This document shows positions 26,013 through 27,862 of a stretch of 64,000 bases of DNA, one piece after another (position 1 is the first letter of the stretch; the number at the start of each line of letters is the position of its first letter). This DNA comes from Streptomyces rimosus (GTDB lineage: Bacteria; Actinomycetota; Actinomycetes; Streptomycetales; Streptomycetaceae). The DNA lies in NCBI RefSeq assembly GCF_008704655.1, contig NZ_CP023688.1, positions 2,790,001-2,854,000 of the forward strand. The letters are read 5' to 3'. A model generated the notes under the pieces. It was not told where the DNA came from and did not search any database. It saw only the letters and a program-made list of their open reading frames with translations. Made by a program: the position numbers and the translations under genes.

Positions 26013-27623
26013 CTACTCCTGCGGCTCGACGCCCGCCCGCAACAGCCCGTACGCGTACGCGTCGTCCAGCGCCTGCCAGGACGCCGCGATGACGTTCTCC
26101 GCGACGCCGACCGTGGACCACTCCCCCTGCCCGTCACTGGTGGACACCAGGACGCGGGTGGTCGAACCGGTACCCAGGCGGCCCTCCAGGATGCGGACCT
26201 TGTAGTCCACCAGCTCCAGCCCGGCCAGCTGCGGGTAGATCCGCTCCAGGGCCACCCGCAGCGCCCGGTCCAGCGCGTGCACCGGACCGTTGCCCTCCGC
26301 GGTGGCCACCAGCCGCTCGCCCTTGGCCCACAGCTTCACGGTCGCCTCGTTGGCGTGGGTGCCGTCCGGCCGGTCCTCGACGATCGCCCGCCAGGACTCC
26401 ACCTCGAAGTACCGGCGCGGCCGCCCCTCCACCTCCTCGCGCAGCAGCAGCTCGAACGAGGCGTCGGCGGCCTCGTACGTGTACCCGGCCAGCTCGCGTT
26501 CCTTGACCCGCGCCACCACCCGGCCGACCAGCTCCCGGTCGCCGCTCAGGTCGAAGCCCAGCTCCTTGCCCTTGAGCTCGATGGAGGCGCGCCCCGCCAT
26601 GTCGGAGACCAGCATCCGCATGCTGTTGCCGACCAGCGCCGGGTCGATGTGCTGGTACAGGTCCGGATCGACCTTGATCGCGGAGGCGTGCAGCCCGGCC
26701 TTGTGCGCGAACGCCGAGACGCCGACGTACGGCTGGTGGGTGGACGGGGTGAGGTTGACGACCTCGGCGACGGCATGCGAGATCCGGGTGGTCTCGGCCA
26801 GCTTGCCCGGCGGCAGCACGCGGCGCCCGTACTTCAGCTCCAGAGCGGCCACGACCGGGAAGAGGTTGGAGTTGCCGACCCGCTCGCCGTAGCCGTTGGC
26901 GGTGCACTGCACGTGGGTGGCGCCCGCGTCCACGGCGGCGAGGGTGTTGGCCACCGCGCAGCCCGTGTCGTCCTGCGCGTGGATGCCCAGGCGCGCCCCG
27001 GTGTCCGCCAGCACCGTCCGTACGACGGCCGAGACCTGCGCGGGAAGCATCCCGCCGTTGGTGTCGCACAGCACGACCACATCGGCGCCGGCCTCGCTCG
27101 CGGTCCGGACGACCTCCTTGGCGTACGCCGGGTCGAGGGCGTACCCGTCGAAGAAGTGCTCACAGTCGAGGAAGACCCGGCGGCCCTGCGCGCGCAGGTA
27201 CGCGACGGTGTCCCGCACCATCGCGAGGTTCTCCTCCGGGGTGGTGCGCAGCGCCAGTTCCACATGCCGTACGTGCGACTTGGCGACGAGGGTGACGACC
27301 GGCGCCCCGGACTCCAGCAGGGCCGTGACCTGCGGGTCGTCCTCGACCCGCACGCCCGCCTTGCGGGTGGCGCCGAAGGCGACCAGCTGGGCGTGCTTGA
27401 AGTCGATCTCCGCGCGGGCCCGCTGGAAGAACTCGGTGTCCCGGGGGTTGGCGCCGGGCCAGCCGCCCTCGATGAAACCCACGCCGTAGTCGTCCAGGTG
27501 CCGGGCGATGGTGAGCTTGTCGGCGACGGTCAGGTTGATCCCCTCACGCTGCGCGCCGTCGCGCAGCGTGGTGTCGAAGACGTGGAAGGCGTCGGACAGT
27601 GAGGGTTCGGGTACGTCCGTCAT
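26013..27623 (-). CDS. cimA: citramalate synthase
   Basis: This gene encodes 536 aa from ATG 27623 with GGAG upstream; a longer in-frame reading to 27953 is leader, not protein. The enzyme condenses pyruvate and acetyl-CoA to citramalate, the threonine-independent entry to isoleucine. The HMGL-like TIM barrel shows FDTTLRDGAQREGINLTVADKL, GFIEGGWPGANPRD, DCEHFFDGYALD and HAQDDTGCAVANTLAAVDAGATHVQCTANGYGER. A C-terminal LeuA-type regulatory domain follows (VDYKVRILEGRLGTGSTTRVLV). The family also contains 2-isopropylmalate synthases, but the N-terminal motif set is of the CimA type. A leader peptide and attenuator-like hairpin lie upstream. Confidence 0.92.
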   Translation of the reverse strand: MTDVPEPSLSDAFHVFDTTLRDGAQREGINLTVADKLTIARHLDDYGVGFIEGGWPGANPRDTEFFQRARAEIDFKHAQLVAFGATRKAGVRVEDDPQVTALLESGAPVVTLVAKSHVRHVELALRTTPEENLAMVRDTVAYLRAQGRRVFLDCEHFFDGYALDPAYAKEVVRTASEAGADVVVLCDTNGGMLPAQVSAVVRTVLADTGARLGIHAQDDTGCAVANTLAAVDAGATHVQCTANGYGERVGNSNLFPVVAALELKYGRRVLPPGKLAETTRISHAVAEVVNLTPSTHQPYVGVSAFAHKAGLHASAIKVDPDLYQHIDPALVGNSMRMLVSDMAGRASIELKGKELGFDLSGDRELVGRVVARVKERELAGYTYEAADASFELLLREEVEGRPRRYFEVESWRAIVEDRPDGTHANEATVKLWAKGERLVATAEGNGPVHALDRALRVALERIYPQLAGLELVDYKVRILEGRLGTGSTTRVLVSTSDGQGEWSTVGVAENVIAASWQALDDAYAYGLLRAGVEPQE

Positions 27624-27727: not shown

Positions 27728-27757
27728 GAAAAGACCCCTCGCGGATGCGAGAGGTCT
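27728..27757 (-). terminator. attenuator-like terminator in cimA leader
   Basis: On the minus strand, AGACCTCTCGC, a four-base loop and GCGAGGGGTCT form an 11-bp stem with one mismatch, followed by TTTTC. It sits 105 bp upstream of the cimA start and after the leader peptide. No upstream gene on this strand needs it, so it is best explained as a transcription attenuator. Confidence 0.75.
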
Positions 27758-27811
27758 GCGCGCGGGTCTGGGACGACGGCGACCGCGCCGTACTCGGTAC
27801 GTACGGGGCGG

Positions 27812-27862
27812 TCACTGCGGACCGGCGCGCCTGCTGCCAATAATCGTGGCGAGGGTGGGCAC
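27812..27862 (-). CDS. putative cimA leader peptide with tandem Ile codons
   Basis: This reading frame encodes 16 aa (VPTLATIIGSRRAGPQ) from GTG 27862 to TGA 27812-27814. It contains Leu and two adjacent Ile codons, both ATT, an uncommon codon in this genome where ATC dominates. It precedes the terminator hairpin at 27728-27757 and the isoleucine-pathway gene cimA. The arrangement matches ribosome-mediated attenuation, where Ile shortage stalls translation and prevents the terminator. No good ribosome binding site precedes the GTG, so translation is not proven. Confidence 0.6.
   Translation of the reverse strand: MPTLATIIGSRRAGPQ

Follow-up and report, generated by a model that had tools for sequence, protein, structure and literature searches.

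The 64,000-nucleotide window analysed here, from Streptomyces rimosus, carries cimA behind a short reading frame with two neighbouring isoleucine codons and a hairpin ending in a run of T. This arrangement raises the question of whether transcription of cimA is set by the supply of isoleucine, and if so, by what device. The parts of the locus are as follows.

27875-27870, minus strand: -10-like box CAAACT, with TGG directly 5' of it, recognized from sequence, 7 nt upstream of the GTG
27862-27812, minus strand: leader reading frame MPTLATIIGSRRAGPQ, GTG start at 27862, 16 codons plus TGA (stop at 27814-27812)
27844-27842 and 27841-27839, minus strand: putative control codons ATT ATT, Ile7 and Ile8
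27830-27820, minus strand: arm A (GCGCGCCGGTC) of the upstream hairpin, within the reading frame, its first base 14 nt past the first base of Ile7
27815-27779, minus strand: inner hairpin B, enclosed by A and C; part of the long form seen in the genus, missing from the compact form
27768-27758, minus strand: arm C (GACCCGCGCGC), the partner of A, flush with the terminator
27757-27732, minus strand: intrinsic terminator hairpin, 11 pairs with a loop of 4, no spacer after arm C
27731-27724, minus strand: T-rich terminator tail (TTTCGTTT)
26013..27623, minus strand: cimA, citramalate synthase, 536 aa, the enzyme that opens the pyruvate route to isoleucine

The original prediction had placed an isoleucine-sensing attenuator at 27728..27862. 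These coordinates cover the frame and the hairpin, but they omit the -10-like box and the tail bases 27727-27724. The 16-codon frame itself was found on the minus strand as described, with a single leucine besides the two adjacent ATT codons. ATT is indeed rare, as the isoleucine codons of five long reading frames in the window comprise 69 ATC, 1 ATA, and 1 ATT (1 of 71). The predicted hairpin with its T-run is present, and the downstream product is, as had been claimed, a citramalate synthase (TIGR00977, 624 bits versus a cut-off of 450). The terminator hairpin lies 108 nt from the cimA start at 27623, and an MFS transporter gene (29349-28015) is located upstream of the leader on the same strand. 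None of 200 shuffled sequences folded as well as the leader RNA (z -3.91). A scan of 1 kb for terminators found one terminator-like site compared to 0.7 expected in shuffles, and thus by itself it did no better than chance. A search of the window against Rfam at gathering scores returned no matches, that is, no known riboswitch or T-box.

Two further features of the locus were observed. The terminator loop (27746-27743 in the window, and in relatives) is strongly conserved as ACCC, ATCC, or mostly NNCC, which is unusual for a plain terminator. In the interval between the terminator and cimA, a block like GGTGGAACCGGTTATTCCGGTAKACCGA with a small palindrome (27676-27648, minus strand) is common to many members of the genus and absent from others, such as L020 and L021; it may act as a further promoter, as an operator, or in translation.

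To follow the leader within the genus, we searched 101 genomes with CimA. A close ortholog was present in 100, while the remaining genome (G081) had only a distant relative (best E 4.6e-10). The regions upstream of the 100 main copies, one second copy, and six paralogs were then scanned with a pattern search. We found the leader before the main cimA copy in all 100 genomes, whereas the search detected none at L087, the second copy, or at any of the six paralogs, which are 54-69% identical. Isoleucine was kept in every one of the 100 leaders, and its first codon was always ATT. The second position was occupied by ATT in 60 leaders, ATC in 26, ATG in 13, and ACG in 1, and 14 leaders carried only a single isoleucine codon. 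The frame began with GTG in 96 cases and with ATG in 4. A -10-like box (xAxxxT plus an upstream TG) was positioned 6-7 nt before the start in 99 of the 100 leaders, as compared to 12% at shifted positions, and no Shine-Dalgarno-like 5-mer was found upstream of the leader start in any of them. The start codons in the genus had been picked independently of the box, while those outside the genus were picked partly by it; thus, only the genus figures test the box. Together, these features suggest that the leader transcript is leaderless, beginning at or next to the GTG.

The RNA around the codons was equally constant, with arms A and C each exact in 99 of the 100 leaders. The peptide was less so. 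In 21 leaders, one base fewer between the isoleucine codons and A shifts the frame, so that SAPV... replaces RRAGPQ; these leaders retain the RNA of arm A and the isoleucine codon, while the remaining peptide is altered. Thus, the isoleucine codons and the RNA appear to be selected and the rest of the peptide not.

Two other candidate elements were considered in the genus. In a few species (L166, L177, L026, L057, L061), the -10 box and the start codon are surrounded by perfect inverted repeats of 12-13 bp. The mean longest stem was 5.51 in the genus versus a swap maximum of 5.22, from related sequences, and 4.62 versus 4.62 outside the genus; the idea that such a repeat serves as an operator throughout was dropped, since it is striking in a few species and not general. 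A pairing of the isoleucine codon region with a downstream GATCAT was visible in some genus leaders and missing in others, and was dropped by eye.

The leader extends far beyond Streptomyces. With a threshold of E up to 0.1, a covariance model (R1) built from 38 genus leaders matched 149 of 150 genomes of the family, covering 17 of 17 genera, and 145 of 296 genomes of the class. We examined 62 further loci, 60 chosen for diversity among a larger number of matches and two returned with the search; 59 were outside the genus and three (L205-L207) were second hits within it. Of these 62 chosen matches, 53 precede cimA, and nine had no cimA match downstream (L168, L175, L181, L186, L192, L203, L205, L206, L207). 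One locus (L161) gave no reading frame to the script, leaving 52 peptides to be read outside the genus. Geometry was obtained for 48 of them, after removal of L182 and L183, which had no scripted terminator and hairpins visible by eye, and of L166 and L184, in which A:C was mis-set.

Outside the genus, the leader takes a compact form of about 80 nt, in which a reading frame of 8-21 codons is followed by A:C and then by the terminator; examples of its peptides are MALPLIIA, MLAASIIT, MHRTAIIIN, and MTVRQIIF. All 52 peptides contain isoleucine, 46 of them with adjacent isoleucines, and besides the start it is the only residue common to all. Isoleucine was thus found in each of the 152 leader peptides read, which outside the isoleucine run vary widely. 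The original prediction had named the lack of a conserved isoleucine-containing frame as a ground for refuting it, and this comparison did not refute it. It accounts for 19.5% of residues in the 52 peptides compared to 2.4% in the CimA of the window. Inspection by eye of 20 cimA upstream regions from genomes missed by R1 revealed six further leaders.

A second model (R2) was built from 39 compact leaders, none of them from the genus. In the 9.36-Mb genome of the window, R2 gave one strong match, the window leader (E 2.1e-18), followed by the next at 3.0e-4. At E up to 0.01 it matched 208 of the 296 class genomes, and cimA is present in 236 of them; because R2 also finds leaders of ilvB and other genes, the two tallies are not a count of co-location. 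In a sample of the whole phylum, 68 of 198 genomes matched, 58 of them outside the class and many weakly. A scan of named genomes gave at least 80 cimA-related loci, 77 of those listed having upstream sequence. Among the matches listed, an R2 match lay upstream on the same strand in 48 of the 77 cimA-like loci, in Streptomyces, Streptomonospora, Nonomuraea, Acrocarpospora, Kribbella, Pedococcus, Isoptericola, Cellulosimicrobium, Symbioplanes, Kutzneria, Micromonospora, Amycolatopsis, Cellulomonas, Pseudonocardia, Demequina, Motilibacter, and Nocardioides. Several of these loci had been used before (L276, L279, L289, L290, L328, L333), and the collection is thus not independent. Again among the matches listed, 29 of the 77 loci had no R2 match upstream. 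The 14 of these that were inspected include two copies of about 60% identity, distant homologs, a Brachybacterium MAG in which cimA sits close behind another frame, and the Ilumatobacteraceae MAG locus described below.

Several loci stood apart from this pattern. The Ilumatobacteraceae MAG locus missed by R2 (L345) encodes the peptide MTRHIAAGIIIC upstream of cimA and has a pair of adjacent hairpins there whose sequence is unrelated; the leader design may thus reach Acidimicrobiia. In one family of the class (f18), eight genomes (L214-L221) carry another conserved block before cimA with no obvious T-run, around GGCGGCGAACCCGTCTCCGTCGCGCG...CCGGTC, which was seen by eye in seven of the eight; one genome of this family has an isoleucine leader before ilvA (L181). 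At L186, a leader MFALVIIM with flush hairpins precedes a 107-aa reading frame without an NCBIfam match, and the genome that holds it (G412) has another leader before cimA (L187).

The original prediction had also proposed a check of hairpin conservation in many Streptomyces. We found that both helices, A:C and the terminator, covary outside the genus. In a sequence-only alignment of the 39 compact leaders, 92.3% of cells pair compared to 40-54% in slid controls, and two-sided changes occur in 14 of the 21 pairs of the two helices. The 67 two-sided cells compare with a shuffle mean of 19, and none of 500 shuffles, which ignore relatedness, was as high. In the 38-leader genus alignment, six pairs had two-sided changes, all within hairpin B because arms A and C are nearly invariant there.

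The spacing of these elements is equally regular. Counted from the first base of the first isoleucine codon, the start of A lies 12-15 nt downstream in 99 of the 100 genus leaders; outside the genus, the distance is 9-15 nt in 47 of 48. A ribosome extends some 12-13 nt past the codon in its A site, and thus one stalled at the first isoleucine codon would halt about where A begins. The start of A is at most 17 nt from the stop codon in 78 of the 100 genus leaders and in 47 of the 48 others, within the stretch that a ribosome at the stop codon would cover. The other 22 genus leaders, which include the frameshifted ones, have 23-27 nt between the start of A and the stop, so that A would be only partly covered. 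At the other end, arm C directly abuts the terminator, with a spacing of 0 in 99 of the 100 genus leaders and in 40 of the 48 other cimA leaders (139 of 148 together).

This geometry agrees with constrained folding of seven sequences, in all of which A:C was kept when the first isoleucine codon was occupied and lost when the stop codon was occupied. The terminator stem (at least its upper eight pairs) was retained in all 28 combinations of the seven sequences with four ribosome states in constrained or equilibrium folding, and hence no thermodynamic switch was seen. The folds thus fit a putative ribosome-position gate on A:C, but do not support an effect of it on the terminator. We also sought an overlapping antiterminator, by constrained folding of the seven sequences before and after the right arm of the terminator is made and by extension across the junction. 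No antiterminator whose pairing would exclude that of the terminator was found; A:C abuts it without overlap and both fold together. Nor was a pairable extension across the C-terminator junction found in the cimA leaders, although the script maximizes stems, so this describes the junction and is no independent test of it. The textbook attenuation originally proposed therefore holds for the isoleucine frame, the terminator, and the agreement between codons and gene shown below, but not for an antiterminator that overlaps the terminator. In our reading, the leader would work like an attenuator, and we do not class it as trp-type.

Related leaders before other genes allowed codon identity to be compared with gene function. 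Those of ilvB encode MQTIVVVRWRAA, MRSSLVLEQRAV, or MTSRRDRVVP and, outside the class, peptides ending in LVLIT, VLVLVM, or FVLILM. The threonine dehydratase gene ilvA is preceded by MQLHLMAIT (L181, a single checked locus), leuS by MRAVRLLLSEPR (L207, a single checked locus, cut by the locus end), and leuA by MSQNLLLT (a single checked locus). The fit was poorer for leuB (L259), which follows MSFSQVVIIR. Downstream genes were assigned by NCBIfam (L168, L175, L192, L245, L181, L207, L244), with scores below the curated cut-offs for ilvA (L181) and leuS (L207); of the 17 ilvB-linked leaders, four were above the HMM cut-off (L168, L175, L192, L245) and the others were assigned by a short sequence motif. 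Isoleucine, valine, and leucine make up 19.5, 4.8, and 7.9% of the 52 cimA peptides versus 9.6, 21.7, and 22.9% of the 17 ilvB-linked ones, a comparison in which only the ratio among the three is informative, as the ilvB peptides had been picked by their content of these residues. These comparisons support an agreement of codon identity with the downstream gene: isoleucine for cimA and ilvA, leucine/valine/isoleucine for ilvB, and leucine for leuA and leuS. IlvA and CimA provide two routes to 2-oxobutyrate for isoleucine, and thus isoleucine codons before both genes make sense.

In 23 leaders before other genes (L250 was left out of the counts), the spacing between C and the terminator ranged from -3 to +4; it was 0 in six and within 1 nt in 15, and the stems overlapped by 1-3 nt in nine. 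Strict flushness is thus a mark of cimA leaders, while adjacency is a mark of the wider family. Two observations belong to this wider group. In four loci outside the class (L248, L252, L253, L254), leaders ending in LVLIT or LVLIR are followed by a reading frame of about 90-120 aa before an acetolactate synthase frame, although the sequence of L254 ends short of the latter. In the same genome as the window, a similarly laid-out leader, MRAVHLLLSGPR, precedes by eye a leuS-like frame (G000:C1:6275249-6275321, L267; weak model match, E 0.225).

Taken together, we consider it likely, with a probability of about 0.75, that the leader controls cimA through ribosome-mediated transcription attenuation, with charged tRNA-Ile as the signal sensed. 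Sequence comparison shows the frame, its isoleucine codons, both helices, the zero spacing in cimA leaders, and the agreement of codon with gene; a leaderless start, translation, stalling, read-through, and a steric step are what we infer. RNA polymerase would start at the GTG, with a 70S ribosome translating the leaderless frame close behind. When isoleucine is plentiful, the ribosome would run to the stop codon and cover arm A; with A:C prevented, the terminator would fold and transcription would end about 135 nt from its start. When isoleucine is short, the ribosome would stall at the isoleucine codons with its leading edge just before A, leaving A to pair with C. Because A:C ends exactly where the terminator stem begins, we propose that it would block closure of the base of that stem in the RNA exit channel of the polymerase, with read-through into cimA as the outcome: the base would close deep in the channel, and a helix starting at the next base would need the same place. 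In a variant of this step, A:C would park the stalled ribosome against the terminator and the polymerase. The steric step by itself is the least certain part of the scheme and is put forward tentatively, as one that may well prove wrong. The lack of strict flushness in leaders before other genes weighs against it. The same observation weighs against a broader proposal, which we consider rather unlikely: the leaders would form an actinobacterial RNA family not confined to one class, with codon swaps in a leaderless mini-ORF as the sole source of specificity, and an antiterminator would not need to compete for bases, as a hairpin abutting the terminator would either keep its base from closing within the polymerase or dock the stalled ribosome at that point.

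The folding results bear directly on a classical attenuator whose overlapping antiterminator escaped simple folding, in the form of a pseudoknot, a partly melted A:C, or shared boundary bases. The stems of C. glutamicum ilvBNC share three bases (PMC11857589), and the overlaps of 1-3 nt in nine of the 23 leaders before other genes point the same way; the zero spacing in 139 of 148 cimA leaders and the lack of a pairable extension across their junction argue against it, and we regard it as distinctly unlikely. The near invariance of arms A and C within the genus could instead reflect an RNA element that answers to a protein or another signal, with the isoleucine frame translated but its codons not the sensor. 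The changes of candidate codons in the S. coelicolor ilvB leader, which were without effect as told in PMC1262725, fit such an element and speak against a simple form of attenuation by codons. Outside the genus, however, the arms change sequence yet stay paired, which argues against a sequence-specific protein site, and isoleucine is retained in all 52 peptides as the only residue besides the start; this makes such an element improbable.

We consider it very improbable that the hairpin simply terminates transcription of the upstream transporter gene and that the frame is incidental. The MFS gene does lie on the same strand and terminators are common, but the frame, the box, A:C, and the terminator stay together with cimA from family to family, whereas farther upstream the sequence differs, as judged by eye. 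The end of the leader peptide, RAGP, presumably resembles SecM, so that it might stall the ribosome by itself, and RAGP (or RAGR) is indeed found in 78 of the 100 genus peptides. Yet 22 genus peptides do without RAGP, 21 of them through the frameshift, in which the RNA of arm A stays the same, and RAG is absent from 42 of the 52 peptides outside the genus. The frameshifted leaders, which keep the RNA and lose the motif, rule out such arrest as the common mechanism, and for the leader itself we hold it to be extremely improbable. Attenuation by the ribosome at the isoleucine codons remains our preferred reading.

The attenuator proposed here has experimentally studied relatives, described below from the parts of the cited reports available. 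In C. glutamicum ilvBNC, an antiterminator (36-79) and a terminator (77-113) adjoin and share a trinucleotide, mutations in the terminator stem raise expression seven- to eightfold, earlier codon changes, as cited there, abolished valine control, and loss of the start codon reportedly reduced expression by 80% (PMC11857589); the ilvB-II motif has a conserved uORF (PMC10272879). The cimA leader resembles both in its putatively leaderless or near-leaderless frame rich in branched-chain amino acid (BCAA) codons, a hairpin beginning within that frame, and an adjoining terminator base. The ilvBNC leader differs in its gene (ilvB), its mixed isoleucine/valine/leucine codons, a third, anti-antiterminator hairpin, and the 3-nt overlap of its stems, while in cimA leaders isoleucine predominates, no third hairpin was seen, and the stems abut without overlap. 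The ilvB1 attenuator of M. tuberculosis has an early-terminated transcript and a BCAA-coding uORF, and a ribosome at the stop codon is said to mask the antiterminator (PMC13236596). Its codons are LVVI and it was seen experimentally, in contrast to the cimA case, which we infer from sequence.

In Streptomyces, a transcriptome-based survey of S. lividans lists eight leader peptides in the part available: ilvL, leuL1/2, trpL1/2, alaL, thrL, and metL (PMC8079986). Like the cimA leader, these are short frames before amino-acid genes, most of them reported as leaderless. The leuS leader at L207 carries the leuL2 peptide, and its A:C hairpin is 1 nt from its terminator. A 2005 survey, as far as its text was available, reports no conserved upstream structures for genes of other pathways (PMC1262725), and cimA is not among the genes named for Streptomyces leader peptides in the available parts of these two surveys (PMC8079986; PMC1262725). 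The T-box before ileS in Actinobacteria, described in the latter, also senses charging of tRNA-Ile, but it binds the tRNA directly and needs no reading frame. The original prediction did not recall attenuation at citramalate synthase as described, and our search of the open-access literature, to which subscription papers do not belong, likewise found no cimA attenuator. We take the cimA leader as a probable new, widespread member of the actinobacterial leaderless BCAA attenuators.

By comparison of these leaders, many actinobacteria probably switch cimA by sensing isoleucine supply. If this is true, an isoleucine-specific sensor would control, at the level of transcription, the committed step of isoleucine synthesis across many actinobacteria, among them antibiotic producers. 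Branched-chain precursors feed polyketide synthesis, and strain work could thus make use of the switch. With its codons swapped by nature between genes, the family would also serve as a comparative system for how non-overlapping actinobacterial antiterminators work, and it bears on why changes of the S. coelicolor ilvB codons reportedly had no effect.
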